Assembly (NCBI GenBank): GCA_017743475.1
Contig: JAGHYV010000024.1
Coordinates: 1-55,835, forward strand
DNA from: Roseiflexus sp.
GTDB lineage: Bacteria; Chloroflexota; Chloroflexia; Chloroflexales; Roseiflexaceae
Reading direction: 5' to 3'
Length of the DNA: 55,835 bases
Shown here: positions 19,921 through 54,293 of the stretch, piece by piece
How the letters are laid out: each line of letters starts with the position of its first letter
How positions within the stretch are numbered: the first letter of the stretch is position 1
Translations under genes and position numbers: made by a program
The notes under the pieces: model-generated
Databases searched by the model: none
The model's input: the letters and a program-made list of their open reading frames with translations, nothing else
What the model was told of the DNA's origin: nothing

Positions 19921-20957
19921 TGATGACACCTACGATGGAAGCGCTGGTCTGGCTTGGACCGCGCAAGATGGAGCTGCGTCGCGAGCCTGTGCCAACGCCC
20001 GAACCGGGTGAGGTGATTGTGGCAGTGGCAGTAGTTGGCATATGCGGATCGGAATTGAGCGGGTACCTTGGACAGAACAGTTTGCGGAAACCACCGCTGA
20101 TCATGGGGCACGAAGCGGCGGGTTGGATTGCCTTCGACAGCAATGCCACGCTGAGTGACGGGTCGCCAGCGCGCGCTGGCGTGCGCGTAACCTTCAATCC
20201 GTTGCTAACGTGCGGCGTGTGTGATCGTTGCCGGGCAGGAAAGAGCAATCTGTGCCGCAACCGACAACTGATCAGCGCTCATCGTCCTGGCGCATTCGCT
20301 ACCTACGTGGCAGTGCCAGCACGCCTCTGCGTCCCTCTGCCCGATCACGTGTCGCTGACGCTGGGATCGCTCACCGAGCCGCTAGCGTGCAGTGTCCGCG
20401 CTGTAGCGCACACCGGAGCACCGAAGCGCCTGGCTATTCTCGGCGCCGGTCCGATCGGGCTACTCTGCCTGGTTGCCGCGCGCGCCGCAGGGATCGAATA
20501 CATCCTGGTGACCGACGTCTCTGATCGGCGACTGGCAGTGGCGCGCGCCTGGGGCGCCACTGCGACCGTCAATGCACGTCACAACGTCCTCAACGCAGTG
20601 CAGGCGTTTGCTCCCGGTGGCGCCGATGCCGTCATCGACGCAGTGGGTCTCACTGTTACCCGCGATCAGGCAGTGCGCGCCGTTACCCCTGGCGGACGCG
20701 TTGTTTTCATTGGTCTCCACGAAGAAGAATCGATGCTTCCTGCCAACTATATCGTTCGCCAGGAAATCTCTGTGACTGGCAGTTTCACCTACAGCGACAA
20801 TGATTTCGCGCGCGCGCTTGCGCTGCTAGCAGAAGGGCACGTCTCGCTCGACGGCGACTGGCTCGAAGAGCGACCGCTGGCGACAGGACCGGCAGCATTC
20901 GAAGAATTGCTGGCGGGCGCAACGCACGCGGCGAAGATCGTGCTGCGCGTCGCGTAA
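19920..20957 (+). CDS. Zinc-dependent alcohol dehydrogenase, MDR family
   Basis: A 345-residue medium-chain dehydrogenase. The catalytic zinc ligands are in GICGSE and GHEAAG, the structural zinc site is the four-cysteine loop CGVCDRCRAGKSNLC, and the Rossmann loop is LGAGPIGLL. Such enzymes oxidise secondary alcohols, polyols or threonine using NAD(P). The start ATG shares its first base with the hydrolase TGA stop, and GGAG lies 8 bases upstream, so translation is coupled to the hydrolase. It is the last gene of the plus-strand run. The substrate cannot be assigned; sorbitol- or threonine-dehydrogenase-like function is possible. Confidence 0.9.
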   Translation: MMTPTMEALVWLGPRKMELRREPVPTPEPGEVIVAVAVVGICGSELSGYLGQNSLRKPPLIMGHEAAGWIAFDSNATLSDGSPARAGVRVTFNPLLTCGVCDRCRAGKSNLCRNRQLISAHRPGAFATYVAVPARLCVPLPDHVSLTLGSLTEPLACSVRAVAHTGAPKRLAILGAGPIGLLCLVAARAAGIEYILVTDVSDRRLAVARAWGATATVNARHNVLNAVQAFAPGGADAVIDAVGLTVTRDQAVRAVTPGGRVVFIGLHEEESMLPANYIVRQEISVTGSFTYSDNDFARALALLAEGHVSLDGDWLEERPLATGPAAFEELLAGATHAAKIVLRVA

Positions 20958-21109
20958 CACCTCAGCTGCGGAGACTACACCCTTTGTCTCGCGCTGGAAT
21001 ACACTGATGGAAGATAATGGGCTTCTTCTCGTTTTGTTAGAATTGTGTTTGATATTTGTTAGAAGTGTAAAAAAAGGCATAAAACCGGATGATCGAACGT
21101 CACATTGCC

Positions 21110-21138
21110 TTGCACCTTCATGAGGTTTGTGATATACT
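21110..21138 (+). promoter_or_regulatory. Sigma70-type promoter of the small membrane protein
   Basis: TTGCAC at 21110-21115, a 17-base spacer and TATACT at 21133-21138. It stands in a gene-free, AT-richer stretch and points at the 32-residue ORF at 21221. Confidence 0.65.
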
Positions 21139-21220
21139 GGAAAGTGCAAGTAATGAGTTCCTTTGTGGAGAAATAGATCGGATTTCCTGTAAAATACCAT
21201 TATTATCCAGGGGGTTATCT

Positions 21221-21319
21221 ATGGGAGTGTTTCTGGCGGCTTTCTTCACCGTTGTGCTCATTATTGCTACCCTCTTCTTCCTATCCATGATCATGTCAGG
21301 GAAACCGGAATCCCGGTAG
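21221..21319 (+). CDS. Small single-helix membrane protein (32 residues)
   Basis: The predicted peptide MGVFLAAFFTVVLIIATLFF continues as LSMIMSGKPESR, a single hydrophobic helix with a short basic tail. An AGGGGG element lies 7 bases before the ATG and a promoter lies 83 bases upstream, so this looks like an expressed gene of its own. I recognise no family. Single-helix accessory subunits of respiratory or photosynthetic complexes have this appearance, but nothing nearby names a partner. Too short for composition to prove coding. Confidence 0.5.
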   Translation: MGVFLAAFFTVVLIIATLFFLSMIMSGKPESR

Positions 21320-21772
21320 GGGAGTAACGGCGCACTACTGCACGTGATCGCTGTCAATGAGGTGGGTAGAGGTTTTTACCTCTCCCTGTATTCTTTTTCT
21401 AAGGTGAGCGCTTCAGCGTTGAACCGCATGCGTACTGGATGCACAGGTGTTCTGCCACATGTTCGTCTGCTGCACACATTCCCGACGTTTCGACATGCCG
21501 GGTATGTGGGCGTCCTGCCAGCATGGATGCGGTGTAACCTGTCACGGGAGCGAAATCATACCTCCGGCTGCCCCGTAGAGGCATTCCTGCCTTCGCCACA
21601 AAAAAATAGCGCAAATGTGAGGAAATATCGAGAATTACCGTATTTCTCAGAGACATCGTTCACGTCTGTCGTATCGCACGAGGCGCCTGCTTCTGGCATA
21701 TTGTTCAGTCTCTGGGAAAACTACGGTATGCCGAAATACACTTCGGCGCACTTCTCTCGTAGACCGAAATGA
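21320..21772. other. Intergenic stretch with no supported gene
   Basis: About 450 bases after the small membrane protein. Open frames exist but show no family motif, no good ribosome site and a composition rich in Cys, Ser and Arg typical of chance frames. It leads into the repeat cluster at 21773. Confidence 0.5.
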
Positions 21773-22150
21773 TGGAGACTGAGAATTCAATCTAGTATGC
21801 GCCTCTCGCTGTCGGGCTAAGGCCCTCGGCTATGCAGGGCGAAGCCTACCTGAGCGGGCTATACTGGAGCAGTTATTCAAAGGCTTTGTAAGAACTGCTA
21901 TAATCCGGTATGCTGCGAACTTTCCGTAGGGCTAGCGAAGAATGAAAAAATAAACTGGTATTCTCCTTTGCCGTAGGGCTAATGGAGATTGAGAATTCGC
22001 CCATTGGGCAGAGTATAAACCGGTATTTATCTCTTGCCGCAGAGCTAAAGCCCTCGGTGAGGCGTGGCGAAGCTCGCCCGCGCAGACTGGTACATGCCAT
22101 TGGGGTGCACCCCTTGACCAAGCAAGGCGAAGCCGCCTGTGCAGCCTGAA
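21773..22150. repeat. Cluster of about five degenerate dispersed repeat units
   Basis: Units begin near 21789 (TCTAGTATGCGCC), 21901 (TAATCCGGTATGC), 21951 (TAAACTGGTATTC) and 22016 (TAAACCGGTATTT), each followed after some 10 bases by a (T)TGCCGTAGGGCTAA-like box. Two units carry a tail with CCCTCGG and GGCGAAGC boxes ending in a GCCCGCGC-type palindrome half; a last tail-only copy is near 22124. ATGGAGATTGAGAATT at 21982 matches the copy at 7374. No gene is visible in this stretch. Confidence 0.7.
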
Positions 22151-22236
22151 GAGTAAATGCTCAACAATCGATATACTGCGCATCATGTTCGACCAAAGGG
22201 AGCTGTGGCGTACCGATTGACGGAATCATCCCCATA

Positions 22237-22886
22237 ATGCTGTTGCTAGAAAGAAACCATCTCAGCAGAGAGGCGTTTGCCATGGGATGGCGCGACGAAC
22301 AGGCGTTCTTCGACCAACTGGCTGATACCTGGGATGCCAGGACAGATCAGGAAACGCTGGCTCGTTTGGCCGAGATTATCACCAGGCTCAGGATTCGCCC
22401 CGGCTCTCGGGTGCTCGATGTCGGTTGCGGCACAGGAGTATTGTTCACACTGATTCGATCGAATATTGGCGCTAGCGGGCAATTGATCAGGCTGGACGTT
22501 TCCAGGCAAATGCTGAGCCACGCCGTAAGCAGAAGCGGAGCGGATCTGTGCATTCAGGCAGATGCCAGGTTGCCGCCGATCCACGATCATGTGTTCGACT
22601 GGATCATCTGTAATGCGGTTCTGCCGCATTTCAAGTTGGCGTGTTATGCACTCTGCGACGCTGTCTGGCGCCGGATGGAACCCTGGTCATCTGTCATGCC
22701 AGCAGTCGTGAGGCGATCAATACGATACATCAGCAGACGGGCGGCGCAGTGGCTCATGATCGCCTGCCAGATCTGACCAAGCTCGCCGGGATGCCGCGTC
22801 AAGCCGGTTTGCATCCAGTGCAGAGCATGGTGATTGCTCGACCGTCTCAGAGCACGCCAGACTTCCTGCAAGCGACCTCTGTGTAA
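22237..22886 (+). pseudogene. Class I SAM-dependent methyltransferase, frameshifted
   Basis: The first frame, best read from ATG 22282 behind AGAGAGG, encodes EQAFFDQLADTWDAR, then the SAM-binding motif VLDVGCGTGVLF, LDVSRQML and FDWIICNAVLPHF. Downstream of about 22636 the family sequence continues in another frame (from 22641): TLRRCLAPDGTLVICHASSR, followed by HDRLPDLTKL and the AGL segment, ending at TAA 22884-22886. A single small insertion or deletion near 22636-22645 explains this. It is either a recent pseudogene or a sequencing error; the rest of the reading is intact. The substrate is unknown. The ATG at 22237 is an alternative start. Confidence 0.75.
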
Positions 22887-23218
22887 CTCACCCCATGTTA
22901 GAAACCGGTTACGAATCTTTAACTCCCTGACATTTCCTCTTCCCTCCATGCGACGAGACGATATGCCATAATGACGATGAGAATAGTCTGCACAGGACAC
23001 CCACGTCATGTAAAGCATTTGCCTATGTTCTGTGTATTGTATGTGCCATTTTAGCGCGGTGCACCCTACGTGATATGCTGCACTGGCGTCGACTCATCTG
23101 CTATCATTCGGACAGCACAGCGCTTCCGCTGAGCGGCAGCAATCCTCAATAAGCAGCGACGATCCGGTTTCGTGTGACTATCTCTTGTTTCTGGCCTTGA
23201 GGCCCTGGGGAGCTCCGT
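22887..23218. other. Intergenic stretch upstream of the Hdr-like gene, nothing assigned
   Basis: About 330 bases without a supported gene. It must hold the promoter for 23219 but I see no convincing -35/-10 pair; GGGGAG just before the ATG is the likely ribosome site. Confidence 0.45.
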
Positions 23219-25411
23219 ATGACCGAAGCCTTCCGTGAGATTTACTGGAATGTCGGCGAGACGGTCGGCTCGCTGACGGTGTATGGTTCTGCACTCATCG
23301 TGCTGGCAGTGATGACGTGGGGGGTGCTGCGCGACATTAATCGCTGGCGCAAAGGTCGCCCCGATATGCGGATCGACAATCTCCGTAAACGCGCAGTCGA
23401 GTTCGTGGTACAGGTGTTCGGGCAGAAAAAGACGCTCAAAGACCGGCGACCGGGCATCATGCACGCCATCGTCTTCTTCGGTTTCATCGCGCTCTTCATC
23501 GGCACCGATATCATCGCTGTCGAGGAAGATTTTACCGTGCCGCTCATGGGAGAGAACGCCGGGAAAATTCTGGTCGGTGAGTTCTACAAGAACTACGAAC
23601 TGATCATGGATTTCATGGGGTTGCTCTTTATCGCCGGTCTGATCTGGATGGCGTACCGTCGCTACACCAAATATCCCGACCGGCTGCACAACCGGCGCAC
23701 CGATCTATGGGCGCTGGCAGTGCTGGGGTATATCGGCTTCAGCGGGTACTTCATCGAGGGATTGCGACTGGCGAACCAGACGATCGGCGGCGTGCCGGTG
23801 TTCACCCAGGATTGGGCACCGCGTGCGTTTGTGGGCTATGGACTGGCAATCGTGTTTCGCAATATCGGCCTTGGCGATGGAAGCCCGGTTGGGTTGGGGT
23901 TGCACCTGTTCTTCTGGTTCAGTCATACACTGGCATCGTTCGCATTCATTGCGTCGATACCGTTCTCGAAACTTCAACACATTATCTATACGCCGCTTAA
24001 TATATTCTTCCGCGATCTGGAGCCAAAAGGGGCGCTGACTCCCATTCCCAATCTGGAAGCCGAAATTGAGAAGGACGAACCACGGCTTGGCGTAGCGACG
24101 CTGGCGGATTTCACCTGGAAACAGCGGCTCGACTTCGATGCCTGTATGCAGTGTGGGCGGTGTCAGTCGAAGTGTCCGGCATATGCTTCGGGATCACAAC
24201 TGTCGCCCAAGTTTCTGATCACTAAAATGGCGAACCTGCAACGCGGCGAGCCAGTGCTGTTGCATGACGGCAGTCTGGGGCGAGCGCATGCGGTTCTGAG
24301 CACTGACCAGTATAACGAAGCCCCCAAACCGGTCGCCGAACGTACACCAGTCTACGCGACGATCGAGGGTGACCGCGAGACGCTGCCGCTGATTGAACAC
24401 GGAATCTATACCGAGAACGAGATCTGGTCGTGTACGACATGCCGCGCCTGTATGGAAGAGTGCCCGGCAATGATCGAACATGTAGACCTGATCGTCGATG
24501 TGCGACGCAACCTGACCATGATCCGGAGTGAGGTGCCCGCGAATGTCAAGCGTGTGCTGGAAGGCATCGAGCGCGCTGGCAATCCGTGGCGCCTGCCAGC
24601 ACGTGAGCGCACTGCCTGGACGGATGGTCTGGACGTGCCAACGATGGCGGAGAAGGAGAGCGCTGAGGTGCTGTACTGGGTTGGGTGCGCTCCCGCCTAC
24701 GATGAACGCTCAAAACGTGTCGCCCGCGCGATGGTGCAACTGTTGACCCGCGCTGGCGTCGATTTTGCAATCCTCGGTGAGGAGGAGAGTTGCACTGGCG
24801 ATCCAGCGCGTCGCATGGGAGAGGAACTCCTGTTCCAGGCACAAGCGCAGACGAATATCGAAACCATGCATCAGTACAGGTTCAAGAAGATCGTAACGAC
24901 CTGCGCACACTGCTTCAATACAATCAAGAATGAATATCCGCAATTTGGCGGGCGCGCTGGCATCGATTATCAGGTCGTCCACCATACCGACTTTCTGGCG
25001 CAACTGGTGCGCGAAGGGAAACTTACACCGAAACGACCGATCAATCAGAAGGTCGTCTACCACGATCCATGCTACATTGGGCGCTACAATGATATTTACG
25101 ACTCGCCACGCGCAGTGTTGCGAGCTATACCCGGCGTGCAACTCGTCGAAGCGCCAGATTGGAACCGTGAACGGGCGATGTGTTGCGGAGGCGGCGGTGG
25201 CAACGTCTGGATGGAAGGATGGGGAAAGCGTAGCGTCAACGCAATCCGCCTGGAGCAGTTAATGCAGGAGAAGCCGCAAACGCTGGCGCTCGCATGTCCG
25301 TTCTGCATGATCATGTTCGAGGATGCGGCAAAGAATGCTGGCGTTGATGAGCAACTGGCACGGAAGGATATGGCAGAATTGCTGATCGAGTCGCTGGATG
25401 AGGAGAACTGA
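23219..25411 (+). CDS. Membrane-bound heterodisulfide reductase/GlpC-like Fe-S oxidoreductase
   Basis: A 730-residue fusion. Residues 1-260 hold five transmembrane helices in a NarI-like arrangement (for example GIMHAIVFFGFIALFIGTDI and HLFFWFSHTLASFAFIASI) with histidines that could bind heme b. Two [4Fe-4S] motifs follow: CMQCGRCQSKCP and CTTCRACMEECP. The C-terminal half has two CCG-type domains: an altered first one (ESCTGDPARRMGEE with CAHC) and a canonical second one (HDPCYIGRYND and MCCGGGGGNVWME). This is the layout of HdrDE/DsrMK-related proteins that pass electrons between a soluble partner and the quinone pool. The LutA-like and LutB-like genes that follow suggest it takes electrons from 2-hydroxyacid or related oxidation. 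The substrate is not shown. Confidence 0.88.
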   Translation: MTEAFREIYWNVGETVGSLTVYGSALIVLAVMTWGVLRDINRWRKGRPDMRIDNLRKRAVEFVVQVFGQKKTLKDRRPGIMHAIVFFGFIALFIGTDIIAVEEDFTVPLMGENAGKILVGEFYKNYELIMDFMGLLFIAGLIWMAYRRYTKYPDRLHNRRTDLWALAVLGYIGFSGYFIEGLRLANQTIGGVPVFTQDWAPRAFVGYGLAIVFRNIGLGDGSPVGLGLHLFFWFSHTLASFAFIASIPFSKLQHIIYTPLNIFFRDLEPKGALTPIPNLEAEIEKDEPRLGVATLADFTWKQRLDFDACMQCGRCQSKCPAYASGSQLSPKFLITKMANLQRGEPVLLHDGSLGRAHAVLSTDQYNEAPKPVAERTPVYATIEGDRETLPLIEHGIYTENEIWSCTTCRACMEECPAMIEHVDLIVDVRRNLTMIRSEVPANVKRVLEGIERAGNPWRLPARERTAWTDGLDVPTMAEKESAEVLYWVGCAPAYDERSKRVARAMVQLLTRAGVDFAILGEEESCTGDPARRMGEELLFQAQAQTNIETMHQYRFKKIVTTCAHCFNTIKNEYPQFGGRAGIDYQVVHHTDFLAQLVREGKLTPKRPINQKVVYHDPCYIGRYNDIYDSPRAVLRAIPGVQLVEAPDWNRERAMCCGGGGGNVWMEGWGKRSVNAIRLEQLMQEKPQTLALACPFCMIMFEDAAKNAGVDEQLARKDMAELLIESLDEEN

Positions 25412-32753: not shown

Positions 32754-33074
32754 TCATTGGGAGCCTTTCAACAGGAGCGGCAGCATAACAACCGGCGTCT
32801 TCGCATAAATACTGTGGGGCAGGTGCGCTGGCATATGAACCTAGGTATTGGGACGCGCATCGATCATATCGGTTCCCAGCGTCACCTGCGCTTCGCCCTG
32901 GATGAAATACATGATAGCCGACGAGGATGACGTATGCTCCGGCAATTCCTGTCCGGCTGCAAAGCCGAACACCACCACCTTCAACCCGCTGTCCTGATAG
33001 AGTGTACGACTGATCGTACCGTCTTCAGGAATAGTAACCTGCTCCGCCAGATCAAGAAACGTTGTGGCATTCAT
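32754..33074 (-). pseudogene. Small cupin protein with an in-frame amber codon
   Basis: The frame from ATG 33074 (GGAGG upstream) encodes a single cupin: FGFAAGQELPEHTSSSSAIM and YFIQGEAQVTLGTD. It meets TAG at 32841-32843 after 77 codons. Reading on in the same frame gives VHMPAHLPHSIYAKTPVVML and a TGA at 32754-32756, which is the normal cupin second half (motif 2, with its metal-ligand His). The stop replaces the Trp usual in a TW(V/I)HMPA string, so TGG to TAG is the likely change. As read, the protein lacks half its barrel. It is the last gene of the iron-uptake remnant. Confidence 0.8.
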
Positions 33075-33150
33075 ACGACCTCCGGTTTAACCGCTACCAG
33101 CGAGATTGCCATCAAGTGATCCTGGTAGGCGCGAAAGACACGGCGCATCG

Positions 33151-33369
33151 TCAGGATGCGCTGGCGCGCTTGCAAAGGTGTGCTGTCATCTTTTCTCGTG
33201 CGACACGTTCGATGGTACGGGTCACAATCTCAATAACCGCAGCGCGCGCGGAAGGCGACAGTGAGACACCGTCGTTCTGAGAATCAACGGAGAGCCGGGA
33301 GAGTTCCTCATCGAGCAATTGATCGACAAGCGCTATGAGGCGCCGATTGCGCGGTGTAACCCTGATCAT
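33151..33369 (-). CDS. Small protein of unknown function (72 residues)
   Basis: A short helical, charged protein: MIRVTPRNRRLIALVDQLLD at the start and ARAAVIEIVTRTIERVAREK in the middle. TAGGAGG lies 8 bases before the ATG, which argues that it is a real gene. It starts 13 bases after the small membrane gene's stop, in the iron-uptake remnant. No family recognised; no cysteines or histidines arranged as a metal site apart from the C-terminal HLCK. Confidence 0.55.
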   Translation of the reverse strand: MIRVTPRNRRLIALVDQLLDEELSRLSVDSQNDGVSLSPSARAAVIEIVTRTIERVAREKMTAHLCKRASAS

Positions 33370-33382
33370 ATGCAGTATCCTC

Positions 33383-33691
33383 CTACGAGAGATCCCCAGA
33401 GATCGAGCGATGCCGGGCAGGATCAGACGGGCGAGATGCGTCGAGCGGATCGATGTCGGTCAACGGGCAGCGTTGTCGATGACCGGCGGCAGCAGGCGGT
33501 CGAGCCGAGGCAGGAAGGGTGGTATCGGTTGCAGCGCGACGCTGCCTGCGGCGGTTCTGCCATCGCATCTGCAAGGTTACCCCGATCAACCAGCAGCAGA
33601 CTGATAGCAGAGCGAATGCCAGCGCAATCTGGATCAGGGCGATCCAGTCGATCCCCGCACCCGGATCATCAAACACGCCTGCGATCATCAT
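33383..33691 (-). CDS. Small single-helix membrane protein (102 residues)
   Basis: A hydrophobic helix at about 18-40 (WIALIQIALAFALLSVCCWL) is followed by a basic, low-complexity tail. Two ATG codons in a row start it, 16 bases after the FTR1 pseudogene stop, with a GCAGGG element. It is probably a small accessory component of the iron-uptake operon. No family recognised. Confidence 0.55.
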   Translation of the reverse strand: MMIAGVFDDPGAGIDWIALIQIALAFALLSVCCWLIGVTLQMRWQNRRRQRRAATDTTLPASARPPAAAGHRQRCPLTDIDPLDASRPSDPARHRSISGDLS

Positions 33692-33706
33692 CCCTGCCCC
33701 ACAATT

Positions 33707-34775
33707 TCAACCGCGTGGCGCCATCTCCGATGCCAGCGCGATTCGACGCTGCCGTCGTTGCATGTATTCCGCCAGATAGTAACTGCCGATGACGAAGATA
33801 GCTGCCGCAGCCTGTAACCCCATCCCTTCCCATGTCGGATACAACCCGAACCAGAATCCTGTCCAGTACGGCAACTCCAGCCAGCGAATCGGGTGGAGCG
33901 GCAACTAACCGATGACTTGCAACATATTGACCGTTTTCCCCACCATCTGAAGCAGCACGGCGCCGATCAGAATACCGGTCACGATTAGCATCTTCTTGTG
34001 CGGCAGTTTCGCCTGCATCACGAACACCGCCAGTCCGACTATGTTCCCGACAGACCCAGCGCAACGCCGACGAGCATAACCATTGCGTCACCTTCGAGCG
34101 TCAACGCCTGAAGGAAGAGCACCGTCTCAAATCCTTCCTGGTAGATACTGGCGAAACCAAGCGTGATAGTCCGAGCCACTGACCGGCATGCTTGCCGAGG
34201 ATGCACTTTTTCCGCTGATGAAACGCAGCCATCCAGTCTTTCCAGTACACATCGTGAAAGAACCAGTTGGTGATCAACAAGAGCACAGCAACCGCGATGA
34301 GCGACACAATCGCCTCAAGCATCTCACCAAGCGCGCCATTGCTATCAACGCACCCTGAGCAACCATTGTTGCGCCTGCTCTACCTCCCCTGCCTGGAGTG
34401 AACCGATCACAACCTGGTATCCGCTAGTAAGGATCGCCGTCCATATCTGCGCGCGAGCAGCGGCAAATGCTGCCTCATCTCCTTCAACAAGCACCTGATC
34501 GGCAAGAGAGAAGCCAGCGCGCGCGTGCGCATCGGATTGCGCAGCGTATGCGGCGATTCTGGCGCCAGCGTCGTCGTGTAACGTGTACGAGTTGTGTCAA
34601 GGCGCACGCGCGCGCCCGCCGGATCGTCGCGCATATGCAACAGAATCTGAACCAGCGTGGTACGAATGGCTTCCGCTGCCTGTCCGGGCGATGGCGACTG
34701 TTGCGCCTGCGCTACACGCGCCGTCAGCAACATGAGAAGGGCAAAGAGTACTGTCCAGAAAGATAACCGACGCAT
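33707..34775 (-). pseudogene. FTR1-family iron permease (EfeU-like), degraded
   Basis: From ATG 34775 (GGGAG upstream) a signal-peptide-like start MRRLSFWTVLFALLMLLTAR leads into an FTR1 N-terminal region. A frameshift near 34545 moves the family sequence (QVLVEGDEAAFAAARAQIW, then QAQQWLLRV) to another frame, which ends at a stop near 34343. Part of the first membrane region appears deleted. Sequence then resumes with MLEAIVSLIAVAVLLLITNW and, after another frameshift near 34160, the FTR1 signature YQEGFETVLFLQAL (ExxE). One more frameshift near 34050 is followed by KLPHKKMLIVTGILIGAVLL, then an in-frame TAG at 33905-33907 where Trp is expected (VIG-stop-LPLHP), then WTGFWFGLYPTWEGMGLQAA to TGA 33707. 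The ferric-iron permease cannot be made as one protein. Confidence 0.82.
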
Positions 34776-34887
34776 TACTCCCTCGAATTACTGCATTATT
34801 CGGGTTCGACGCTCGCGATGTTGCGACCAGTTCACCTTGCTGTTACTCGACAATACGGATGCCGAGCACACCGGCAACCTGACTGAT

Positions 34888-35925
34888 CTAACCGGTGATC
34901 GCAGTCGCCCGATTCTGAGCTTCTGCACCAAGCAGATCAGCTTCTTCGGGAGTAAAGCGCTTGCCGCCCTGCTCCTGCGCGTAGATGTCGGCAAAGAACG
35001 CTCTGAGATCGCGCAGTCCTTCTACGATCTGATTTGCCTGATCAGCATCGACCGTTTCGACTCGCAGACGAACCTGCGCGTAGACGACCTCTAATCCGCC
35101 GAGGATGTCCCGGATGTCAGCCAGACGCGAAATGACGTTGAAGTCTCGTTGCGTTGAAGCATCCCCCAGAACGAAACGCGAGTCGCGCCAGGACGCGAAA
35201 TATTCGCTCATCGTCGGCACCATGACCACCAGCGCGGTAAACGCATCCGACTCGGTCGGTGTCCACGCTTGAGCAGCCGCCTGAAGATCGTTCGCCATCT
35301 GAGCTAGCATATCGACGCTCCCCTTCAAAACGCTGGCATCCGGCAGCGTTTCACCGAAGGCGATCATGCCATCGCCATTCCAGTCAGCAGCGACATCTGT
35401 GCCATACGCCGGTTCGGTTCCCCACAGCGCACTCTCTGTGACACCGAAGAGATTGCCGGGTTTGGGCAGCACACGACCGTCCGGCAACTTCAGGTCGAAC
35501 GATACGGCATTCTCTGGATCATCAACGCCTGCTGCGCCCGCATCGAGATCAACATCGAACTGTGACAGGCTGGAAGTTCTGGCGACAATACCTTCCATCT
35601 TTTCGTACAGCGCACTGGCTTTCATCCAGGTGGCGCGAGCGTCGTCGAGCGCGGCAATTGCTGCGTCTTTGCGCGTACTCCACAGTACTGCGTAATCGAA
35701 TCCGACTTCACTGGCAATGGCATAGTAGCGATCAGACGCGACCTGGAGTTCTGTTGCTGCCTCGGTGAGTGCACGGCATTGTTCGATCAGATAGGTCTTT
35801 ATACCGCTGAGGTCGGAAGTTTCTGCGGTATCGGACGTCGCCGCTGGCATCGTCGCCTGCCCGCAGGCGACTATTGCAAGCGCGAGGAAACTGGCAACCA
35901 GAAGGCGAGACACGTGGTTCATCAT
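34888..35925 (-). CDS. Imelysin/EfeO-like lipoprotein, C-terminally truncated by an amber codon
   Basis: About 345 residues. The start ATG 35925 follows AGGAAA; the signal sequence ends in a lipobox (LAIVACGQ), so it should be anchored outside the cell membrane. The body is helical and resembles EfeO/EfeM imelysin-type iron-binding proteins, with a Ca-binding-type loop DWNGDGMIAFGE in the middle. The classic HxxE metal motif is not obvious, so the family call is moderate. The frame stops at TAG 34888-34890 after RATAITG, but continues in frame as ISQVAGVLGIRIVE to TAA 34843, so about 15 residues are lost by a CAG to TAG type change. It is first in the iron operon behind a strong promoter. Confidence 0.6.
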   Translation of the reverse strand: MMNHVSRLLVASFLALAIVACGQATMPAATSDTAETSDLSGIKTYLIEQCRALTEAATELQVASDRYYAIASEVGFDYAVLWSTRKDAAIAALDDARATWMKASALYEKMEGIVARTSSLSQFDVDLDAGAAGVDDPENAVSFDLKLPDGRVLPKPGNLFGVTESALWGTEPAYGTDVAADWNGDGMIAFGETLPDASVLKGSVDMLAQMANDLQAAAQAWTPTESDAFTALVVMVPTMSEYFASWRDSRFVLGDASTQRDFNVISRLADIRDILGGLEVVYAQVRLRVETVDADQANQIVEGLRDLRAFFADIYAQEQGGKRFTPEEADLLGAEAQNRATAITG

Positions 35926-36051
35926 GGTTTCCTGTTCTGGACAGACCTTTTGCTTCACCAATGCGACGCCCAATACTGCACCTTACGCCACCACCTAAAG
36001 CGGTTTGGCAGGACATAATGCAGAAAATCGATCCATCGCATGACGTTGGTT

Positions 36052-36080
36052 AGCATATCCTAATAAAATCGATTTGTCAA
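36052..36080 (-). promoter_or_regulatory. Strong sigma70-type promoter of the iron-uptake remnant
   Basis: On the minus strand, TTGACA (36080-36075), a 17-base spacer and TATGCT (36057-36052), about 130 bases before the lipoprotein start. The AT-rich surround (36050-36100) could hold an iron-regulator site, but I see no clean Fur palindrome. Confidence 0.7.
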
Positions 36081-36112
36081 GATAAAACAGTGAAAATAGA
36101 CCGACACAACGT

Positions 36113-36143
36113 TTGCATTGCTCAACCTCGCTCGTACTATAAT
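36113..36143 (+). promoter_or_regulatory. Possible promoter of the kynureninase pseudogene
   Basis: TTGCAT at 36113-36118, a 19-base spacer and TATAAT at 36138-36143. It is divergent from the iron promoter. The long spacer lowers confidence. Confidence 0.4.
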
Positions 36144-36275: not shown

Positions 36276-37257
36276 ATGTCGCAAAGCCCACCATCTCTCG
36301 TGCTGCGCTCGTGGCGCGCGACGCCGCCGATCCGCTGGCGCACTCCCGCGATTACTTCCATGTTCCTGACAACCTGATCTATCTGGACAGCAACTTCCTT
36401 GGTCAACTGCCAAAACGAACCGTCGAGCGAATGCATCGGACGCTGCACGAAGAAAGGGGCGGCATGCAGATCAAGGGATGGACGGCATGCGACTGGATCA
36501 ACGCGCCAGCGCGGATTGGCGCGAAGATTGCCTGCCTGATCGGAGCGCGGCCGGACGAAGTGATCTGCACCGACTCAACGTCGATCAATCTTTTCAAGAC
36601 GCTGGCAGCCGCACTTACCCTGAATCCTGGTTGCCGGGTGATCCTCTCGACGCGCGATAATTTCCCGACCGATCTCTTCTCTACATTGCACAGGGATTGA
36701 TCCAGCATCTCGGCGGAGGGTATGAACTGCGGATGGTGGATGGTGAAAGGATCGCGGAATATCTGAACGATCGGATTGCGGTGTTGATGTTGACGCACGT
36801 CAACTATAAGACGGGGCGTATGTTCGATCTGCCCGCCCTGACGCAGCGGGCGCATGCCTATGGTGCGCTCACGCTGTGGGATCTGGCGCATTCTGCAGGG
36901 GCGATCCCGATGGATCTGAACGGCGCTGGCGTCGATTTTGCGGTCGGGTGCGGCTACAAATATCTCAACGGAGGTCCTGGGCGCCTGCCTACCTGTTCGT
37001 TGCGCGCCGGTGGCAACCGCTTTCGGGATGGATGGGTCATGCCAACCCGTTTGCGTTTACATCGATCTATGAGCTAGCGCCGGGGATTGGTCGCTACCTG
37101 TGCGGCACACCGCCGATCCTGAGCGTGGCAGCGCTCGAATCCGGCGTCGATCTGCTGCTCGAAGCCGATGTGCAGCAGGTTCGGGCAAAATCGCTGGCGC
37201 TCACCGATTTGTTCATTTATCTGGTCGATATGCGCTGCGCCGCCGATGAGTTCGGTT
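36276..37257 (+). pseudogene. kynU: Kynureninase, multiply frameshifted and 3'-truncated
   Basis: Kynureninase sequence appears in successive frames: SRDYFHVPDNLIYLDSNFLG, TSINLFKTLAAAL, then [28 protein letters not shown] and the PLP-lysine string [12 protein letters not shown], then [20 protein letters not shown] and LCGTPPIL. The lesions are a 1-base loss near 36290, an apparent 5-base duplication near 36672, a 1-base loss near 36977 and loss of the 3' end where IS5-like sequence begins near 37257. AGGAGAG precedes the ATG at 36276. The intact enzyme would cleave kynurenine to anthranilate and alanine in tryptophan breakdown. No other kyn gene is in the window. Confidence 0.85.
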
Positions 37258-37841
37258 CGATACTATTTCGACAAATGGAATCGTGATAAACCTTCATCAA
37301 AATCAATGATACGCTGCGGAAACTGGCGCGACAACGCTAAATCGCGATCCAGAGCCGTCTATCAGCGTCCTGGACTCCCAATCTGTCACAACGACCGAAG
37401 TAGGCGGAGAGCGCGGCTATGACGGAAAAAAAAGGTCAATGGGCGCAAACGGCAATTTTGGGTTGATACAAAGGGGTTTCTGTCGCTCGTGCTCGTCCAT
37501 CCGGCGGACATTTCAGATACCGAGGGTGCAGAATGGCTTCTCGCCGCACATCATCACTCATTTCCGCGAATGCAAGAGATTCGGGTGGATGAGGGGTAAA
37601 AAAGGGTTAGATGAATCGCTAAAAAAATACTGCGATAAGCCTGAATATAATTGAAAAACCGACTGGGCAAAAGGGATGTGCCGTCATCCCGAAGCGATGG
37701 GTGGTGGAACGCTCAATTGCGTGGGCGAGACGCAATCGTTTGGCGAGTAAGGAATACAACCGCAATCCAGAATCAAGCGAAGCCTTTCTTTATCTTAGTT
37801 CTATCGCAATGCTTCTGAATCGGCTCTATCCGAAATGTTAG
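37258..37841 (+). mobile_element. IS5-type transposase remnant, central and C-terminal part
   Basis: Across shifting frames one can read VRYYFDKWNRDK, VLDSQSVTTTEVGGERGYDG, VDTKGFLSLVLVHPADISDT (DDE-region) and VIPKRWVVERSIAWARRNRL, ending SSEAFLYLSSIAMLLNRLYP and TAG at 37839-37841. These are the middle and end of an IS5-group transposase, with stop codons and frameshifts (for example the TAA after VDEG near 37596). The first 80 or so residues are missing here and appear on the opposite strand at 37845-38018. Confidence 0.82.
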
Positions 37842-37844
37842 TTT

Positions 37845-38018
37845 TTGATCACGCTCCTTGTAGAGCAGCGCGTTGACGATCGCCCGGCGATCGATTTCGG
37901 TCGGACGCCCGCCTTTTGGCGACGAGGTGACGACTAGCGGCGCGATGGCGGCCCATTGCGCATCGGTCAGATCGGTCGCATACTTCGTTGGATAGGATCG
38001 AAGCTCACGTTGCGGCAT
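37845..38018 (-). mobile_element. IS5-type transposase remnant, N-terminal part, inverted
   Basis: From ATG 38018 on the minus strand: YATDLTDAQWAAIAPLVVTS, then KGGRPTEIDRRAIVNALLYK, the standard IS5-group N-terminus. The family sequence ends near 37850 and the open frame then runs antisense to the other fragment. So one element, or two copies, was split by an inversion. No terminal inverted repeats were identified by eye. Confidence 0.8.
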
Positions 38019-38119
38019 AACAGATTACTCCTCATCAGAACGGCATGGTTGCTATCATGATACCTCAAGTCCGGGTTTCTGATCACCCTCTGAGAAATGC
38101 TGTTATTCTCCAATCTTCA

Positions 38120-42482: not shown

Positions 42483-42753
42483 ACGATGGTGAACCTCCTC
42501 TCCCCACATTATCGCTTCTCGTGGATGTTTTCGGGTTGATACAATGCCAGACCTGTGAGAGACGATGCTTCTTCGACGTTCGTTCGCGCCAGTCGCACTG
42601 GCAGCAGGGAGCGACGTTACAGTGCAACATCCCTCCCTGCAGCGGTCGATTACGGCACATCTTTGATCTGCCCCGGCGCCTGTTAATTTTCCCGCTGTCC
42701 GGTGCGTATCCTATGCCAAAGCGCGGTAGAATGCAAACGAAAGGAGAAACCAA

Positions 42754-43530
42754 ATGCTGCCGATCAACCGCGTGAAACAGGCGCTCAAAGCTGGCCAGCC
42801 AGTATACGGAACCATGCTCGTCGAGAGTGCTTCCACGGCATATGTCATGATGCTGGCGCACGCCGGGTACGACTTCGTGTTTATCGATATGGAGCACGGC
42901 GTCTACGATCTCGGCGCTGTTGCCGAAATGATCAGGGTGGCGCGCCTGACTGGTCTCACGCCGCTGGTGCGGATTCCCGACTTGGCATACGATCTGGTAG
43001 CGCGCACCCTTGATGCCGGTGCGATGGGAGTCATGCTGCCGCGCGTTGAGACTGTCGAACAGGCGCAGACGCTGGTCAGATACGCAAAGTACCCACCAGA
43101 GGGTGTACGTGGAGCAGCTGCTGGTCGCGGTCACACCGACTACCGTGGCGTCGCGCCATGCGATCTGGTGCGTCACATGAATGAGCATACGCTCATCATT
43201 CTCCAGATCGAACGGGAAGCTGCCGTGCAGCGCATCGACGATCTGTTTGCCGTGCCGGGCGTCGATGCCGGGCTGATCGGACCGTTTGACCTCACGATCT
43301 CACTAGGGGCGGAGAGCGTCACCGCGCCGGAAGTTGAGTCGGCAATCGCGCGGGTGCTGGGTGCCGCGCAGCGTGCTGGCATCGCATGCGGCATCCACAG
43401 CAGTGACCCGCAGCAGGCGGCTATATGGCGAGAGCGTGGTATGACCCTGATAATGAGCGGCAGCGATGCGCAATTCTTCAGTGCAGGGGCGCGTCAAGCA
43501 CTTGCGGCAATGCGCCATTCAATCGCCTGA
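42754..43530 (+). CDS. HpcH/HpaI-family class II aldolase
   Basis: A 258-residue TIM-barrel aldolase: GTMLVESASTAYVMMLAHAG, DFVFIDMEHGVYD (the catalytic His and neighbouring Glu), AGAMGVMLPRVET, ILQIEREAAV (metal Glu) and GLIGPFDLTISLG (metal Asp). It is related to 2-keto-3-deoxy-L-rhamnonate and 4-hydroxy-2-oxovalerate-type aldolases, which cleave to pyruvate plus an aldehyde. AAGGAG precedes the ATG by 8 bases. It stands alone, so the sugar acid or aromatic product it uses is not indicated. Confidence 0.9.
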   Translation: MLPINRVKQALKAGQPVYGTMLVESASTAYVMMLAHAGYDFVFIDMEHGVYDLGAVAEMIRVARLTGLTPLVRIPDLAYDLVARTLDAGAMGVMLPRVETVEQAQTLVRYAKYPPEGVRGAAAGRGHTDYRGVAPCDLVRHMNEHTLIILQIEREAAVQRIDDLFAVPGVDAGLIGPFDLTISLGAESVTAPEVESAIARVLGAAQRAGIACGIHSSDPQQAAIWRERGMTLIMSGSDAQFFSAGARQALAAMRHSIA

Positions 43531-43579
43531 TCGCACAAGATACTACATATTGCCCTATGCACAAGCTTGTCAGGTAGCA

Positions 43580-43585
43580 TATAAT
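43580..43585 (+). promoter_or_regulatory. -10 element upstream of the HD-domain gene
   Basis: A perfect TATAAT 96 bases before the ATG at 43681; no -35 at a normal distance. Confidence 0.35.
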
Positions 43586-43680
43586 GACAGACAGGCATTG
43601 GGTGAGATCGTTTGCCGATACAACAAAGGCGTTGAATGATCTTTCCCCGTTCAGGAATCTACGCCTGAGGAAAGATAATC

Positions 43681-53127: not shown

Positions 53128-53690
53128 ATGATGACCGAGCTTCCATCCCGCCCTGCACCCTGGATCGATCGAGCAGTTGCCTGGCTACTTTGCCACTGGC
53201 TTGCATCGTTGAATCTCCTTGCTGGCATCTACGCAGGTCTGCCGTGGGTGTCGCCCTGGCTGAAGGCGAATGGGCATCCAGTAGCGGGTGAGATCATTTT
53301 CCGCATATATACGCCCTTGTGTCATCAACGCCCTGAGCGTTCGTTCTGTTTTTGCGGGTATCAGGTGGCGTTCTGCCATCGCTGCACAGCGTTTTACGGC
53401 GGTCTGTTCATCGTCGGAGTACTCTTTTCCATGGTGCGGCGCTGGATCCGTCCGGCGTCGTTAACTCTTGGCGTGCTCTTGCTCATCCCGATGGCACTCG
53501 ATGTCGGTTCGCACATCATCAGCGATCTCTTAAACCTTGGGTGGCGCGGGGGTGGTGACGACATCGGCTCGCTCAATTTTTGGCTGCGCATGATCACTGG
53601 TGCGCTGGCAGCGCTGGCGATGGTGCTGGTCGTCTATCCCCGACTCGAACGTGAACTTCCGGCGCAGGTGTGGGGGATCGGAGGGGCGCG

Positions 53691-53694
<4 letters not shown>
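53128..53694 (+). CDS. DUF2085 membrane protein (first copy)
   Basis: A 188-residue protein with four hydrophobic segments. The conserved cysteine region is [20 protein letters not shown], then [20 protein letters not shown] between helices 1 and 2, the DUF2085 signature, possibly a metal or disulfide site. Two ATG codons in a row begin at 53128, just after the expected transcription start, and the longer frame from 53071 would begin upstream of the promoter. It overlaps the TlpA-like gene by ATGA, so the two are translationally coupled. Function unknown. Confidence 0.8.

Positions 53695-54293
<599 letters not shown>

Follow-up and report, generated by a model that had tools for sequence, protein, structure and literature searches.

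The stretch of DNA that we analysed (hereafter the window) spans 55,835 nt of contig JAGHYV010000024.1 from the Roseiflexus sp. assembly GCA_017743475.1, a draft of 206 contigs. It contains the remains of a putative EfeUO-like operon on the minus strand, a promoter in front of it and, beyond the promoter, a divergent kynureninase-like gene. As a reference we used G002, another member of the genus whose genome is a single contig of 5,801,598 bp; it is the nearest among the genomes compared, which were six Roseiflexus genomes including that of the window. Its locus (L044) is collinear with the window operon, intact and 92-94% identical at the DNA level, and lesions were placed by projecting the window genes codon by codon onto this copy. 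The features are:

32757-33074, minus strand: cupin-domain pseudogene, with a TAG at 32841-32843 (codon 78 of 106), by projection on L044:2965-3285
33071-33173, minus strand: remnant of a SAM methyltransferase gene (the last ~34 codons), the 3' end being the only part of the G002 gene that aligns here
33151-33369, minus strand: small ORF 1 (72 aa), 3' end replaced at a deletion junction, by tblastn to relatives
33383-33691, minus strand: small ORF 2 (102 aa), one likely membrane segment, open and fast-changing
33707-34775, minus strand: FTR1 iron-permease pseudogene, with a TAG, a 1,264-bp deletion and four frameshifts, by projection on G002
34843-35925, minus strand: EfeO-like lipoprotein gene (efeO; imelysin, M75-only), with a PF09375 match and a TAG at 34888-34890, by projection
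36052-36080, minus strand: operon promoter, TTGACA-N17-TATGCT, invariant in six Roseiflexus genomes
36276-37242, plus strand: kynureninase-like pseudogene, divergent from the operon, 3' end lost, by projection on G002
37240-38100, no strand assigned: rearranged fragments of an IS4/5-type element (DUF4096), multicopy in its own and related genomes

The initial annotation of this DNA had pointed to in-frame TAG codons at 32841, 33905 and 34888, replacing two Trp and one Gln through single changes. Projection on G002 places all three exactly there and gives the G002 codons at these sites: TGG at codon 78 of the cupin gene, TGG at codon 714 of FTR1 (TAG at 33905-33907 in the window) and CAG at codon 359 of efeO. 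Each stop is one transition away from its sense codon, and family-like sequence resumes in frame beyond it. Comparison with intact Roseiflexus homologues, which the annotation had called for, thus finds in G002 a collinear, whole copy with sense codons at all three sites. It had also asked whether homologues naturally end at a TAG position. For efeO none does: 14 of 15 homologous frames could be read to their end and all 14 extend further, with Gln or Glu at the position wherever the motif is clear. The efeO stop costs only the final 15 residues, since the frame is open through codon 358, and the truncated frame still matches PF09375 (E 7e-22), as expected of an imelysin-domain lipoprotein. 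The G002 cupin protein matches the Cupin_2 profile with an E of 9e-6, just under the Pfam cut-off.

Damage to the permease gene goes well beyond its stop codon. The G002 FTR1 is a protein of 779 aa (PF03239, E 5e-17) bearing the two REXXE motifs of FTR1 permeases, REGLE at 515 and REGFE at 635. The window copy has neither: the first lies inside the deleted part, and the second has become QEGFE, with Gln in place of the Arg of REGFE. The deletion and frameshifts seen earlier are real, amounting to 1,264 bp with a junction at about 34360-34366, where the two ends have ~7 bp in common, and to four shifts (-1 at 34558, -1 at 34328, -1 at 34167 and -4 at 34041). The genome of the window gave no PF03239 match, nor any FTR1 match outside this locus. 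Two further losses had been overlooked, a methyltransferase deletion and the broken kynureninase with its IS fragment. The G002 methyltransferase has 269 aa (Methyltransf_11), and in the window a ~790-bp deletion at 33174 has removed all but its end. The small genes, described earlier as fresh, are indeed still open, but ORF 2 is only 88% identical in DNA to G002 (44-73% protein identity in other Roseiflexus) and ORF 1 has lost its 3' end.

On the other side of the promoter, the kynureninase-like gene (KYNU_C and Aminotran_5 domains in G002) carries a -1 at 36293, a +5 at 36673, a -1 at 36981 and a 15-bp deletion at 37017. The IS4/5-type fragments stand where G002 has the 3' end of this gene and a cytochrome c gene, the latter being absent from the window locus. 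The two parts of these fragments have a mutual orientation unlike that of any other copy. Elsewhere in the window, ORFs of G002 are interrupted by two changes of CGA to TGA (53352-54293) and by a TAA together with a +1 (42570-43600), and these may be further pseudogenes or not genes at all; the same goes for a few ORFs of G002 that fail to align well. The stretch 20957-23219 aligns little to G002 and contains short repeats of ~110 bp that occur in tens of copies in the G002 genome.

We assigned nucleotide changes in the cupin gene, FTR1 and efeO to the window or the G002 branch, with outgroups drawn from two to four further Roseiflexus copies. The window branch accumulated 41 nonsynonymous and 20 synonymous changes, against 7 and 18 on the G002 branch (Fisher P=0.0016). 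For efeO alone the counts are 23:12 versus 3:10. Selection on the window operon has therefore been relaxed, efeO included.

The promoter, with its -35 TTGACA, 17-bp spacer and -10 TATGCT, is as first described, and it is unchanged across the six genomes. Its -10 sits within a palindrome, TTAGGATATGCTAA (36050-36063), which probably binds a repressor. The palindrome around the -10, TTAGSATATGCTAA, occurs once per genome in the six Roseiflexus genomes; as a candidate regulon site it was discarded, because with a single copy per genome the search led to no regulator. Some 60 bp around the promoter (36050-36117) are almost unchanged in all six, including two genomes without efeO and FTR1.

These two genomes, G004 and G005, show that the window lineage is not alone in lacking a working operon. 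We found neither FTR1 nor imelysin genes in them, while the promoter and downstream genes are kept. What G005 has left of FTR1 is 28 codons from its 3' end, fused directly behind the promoter; in G004 the promoter is fused to small ORF 2. Since their deletion ends differ, these look like separate losses, yet they may share a first step. G002 and G001 have whole copies of FTR1 and the imelysin-type gene. So does G003, whose locus shares 99.9% identity with the G001 one, apart from two bases that its FTR1 lacks close to the start (L046, about 2294-2345); this gap either is an early lesion or stems from faulty assembly. The operon is thus dispensable, and the genus seems to have lost it on more than one occasion. 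FeoB was found in all six genomes and is present in two copies in five of them, that of the window among these, which makes loss of the operon plausible. In the literature on Roseiflexus we found nothing on FTR1 or EfeO beyond passing co-mention.

That all three stops are TAG, each followed by family-like sequence, had been flagged as worth a check against readthrough, i.e.: TAG being read as an amino acid in the operon or genome-wide, with the genes functional. We checked this against the tRNA set, the release factor and stop usage in window genes, and reject it as having practically no chance of being correct. An RNA-family search gave 44 tRNA genes, all named by ARAGORN, and none has a CTA anticodon; since tRNA-Phe is missing from the same list, at least one tRNA is not in the draft. 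RF1 was found with a score above its curated cut-off, and TAG is an ordinary terminator nearby, ending 5 of 22 neighbouring window genes. A single recoding would also have to accommodate different residues (Trp twice, Gln once), and it cannot mend the four frameshifts and large deletion of FTR1. The coincidence itself is within chance: from codon content, 53% of the single changes that would create a stop here yield TAG (62% if only transitions are counted), so that three TAGs out of three have a P of 0.15 or 0.24, respectively, and enrichment is not significant.

The disabling changes could also be artefacts, the genes being whole in the living cell. In a 206-contig draft, assessed from the assembly alone, any one point lesion may be a sequencing error, and single-base deletions are among the lesions; as an account of the locus, however, we consider this very improbable. 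The locus holds ten small disabling changes in 3,468 aligned coding bases, while the 22 neighbouring genes (30,894 bases) have zero frameshifts and stop changes only at a gene end or overlap, a contrast that is descriptive because these neighbours were picked as well aligned. Errors would not explain the large deletions, the IS fragments or the nonsynonymous excess either. A partial decay, in which FTR1, methyltransferase and cupin are dead but the intact promoter still drives production of a shortened EfeO-like protein and of the small ORF products to some benefit, deserves more weight, yet is still unlikely. What speaks against full decay is precisely the promoter, identical in all six genomes, and an EfeO-like protein that is only slightly shortened and could still be made; besides, two other species retain promoter and small ORFs without efeO and FTR1. 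On the other hand, efeO looks unconstrained on the window branch, and no role is known for an EfeO-like protein that lacks its permease. Ordinary decay, which the initial annotation had considered the simplest view, is almost certainly the right reading: a dispensable operon has died, and its TAGs end translation. It is supported by intact homologues at the site, mixed lesions, loss of the REXXE motifs and the raised nonsynonymous share. With an intact orthologue at the locus, several disabling lesions and relaxed selection, these genes have what defines pseudogenes, and the operon presumably yields no functional product.

From these comparisons we can propose a history. The ancestor shared with G002 had an operon encoding an EfeO-like lipoprotein, an FTR1 whose N-terminal part was long, a methyltransferase, a cupin and two small proteins. 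Its promoter had the -10 inside a palindrome, the probable repressor site, and the operon presumably imported iron. In the window lineage its function was lost, most likely because two FeoB ferrous-iron transporters suffice in the habitat, after which stop codons, frameshifts and deletions would have accumulated, an IS element and deletions breaking the divergent kynureninase alongside. Both the reason for dispensability and the order of events are our inference. More tentatively, and with rather more doubt than belief, one could imagine that Roseiflexus repeatedly sheds efeO and FTR1 while keeping the promoter and palindromic operator for the small genes behind them, and that a metal-responsive repressor not yet described in Chloroflexota binds at TTAGSATATGCTAA.

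The closest known systems are the EfeUOB/FTR1 operons (E. coli EfeUOB, P. syringae EfeUOB/M), which the G002 locus resembles in its two-REXXE FTR1 beside an imelysin-type lipoprotein. There are several differences. The six Roseiflexus genomes lack a DyP-type EfeB: we found no Dyp_perox_N match in them, the search being limited to this one of the two peroxidase families named in PMC3143127 (the other is DUF1111). In the EfeO-like protein the imelysin domain is the sole match, and the GxHxxE motif of EfeO-family imelysins (PMC3143127) is missing, both from the window protein and from 14 of 15 homologues, where PGNLFGxxE..LWG takes its place. More broadly, PGNLFGxxEsxLWG replaces GxHxxE in M75-only EfeO-like proteins of Chloroflexota and Trueperaceae, mostly beside an FTR1 gene (L030, L031, L034-L041, L043 and window 34891-35925). 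The permease has a long N-terminal part, and behind it the operon also encodes a methyltransferase, a cupin and two small proteins; in the window the permease is destroyed. Without a DyP-type EfeB and with an imelysin devoid of GxHxxE, the intact operon is EfeUO-like rather than EfeUOB, and iron transport is what family membership suggests.

As a case of bacterial pseudogenes after operon loss, the window matches expectation in its mixture of stops, frameshifts and deletions, relaxed selection, nearby IS fragments and intact sister orthologues. Nothing notable differs, although loss in the genus seems to have occurred more than once. A possible case of readthrough is thereby removed, leaving a modest example of how hot-spring phototrophs recurrently lose an iron-uptake operon, which can help annotation and the question of when cells can do without FTR1-type uptake.
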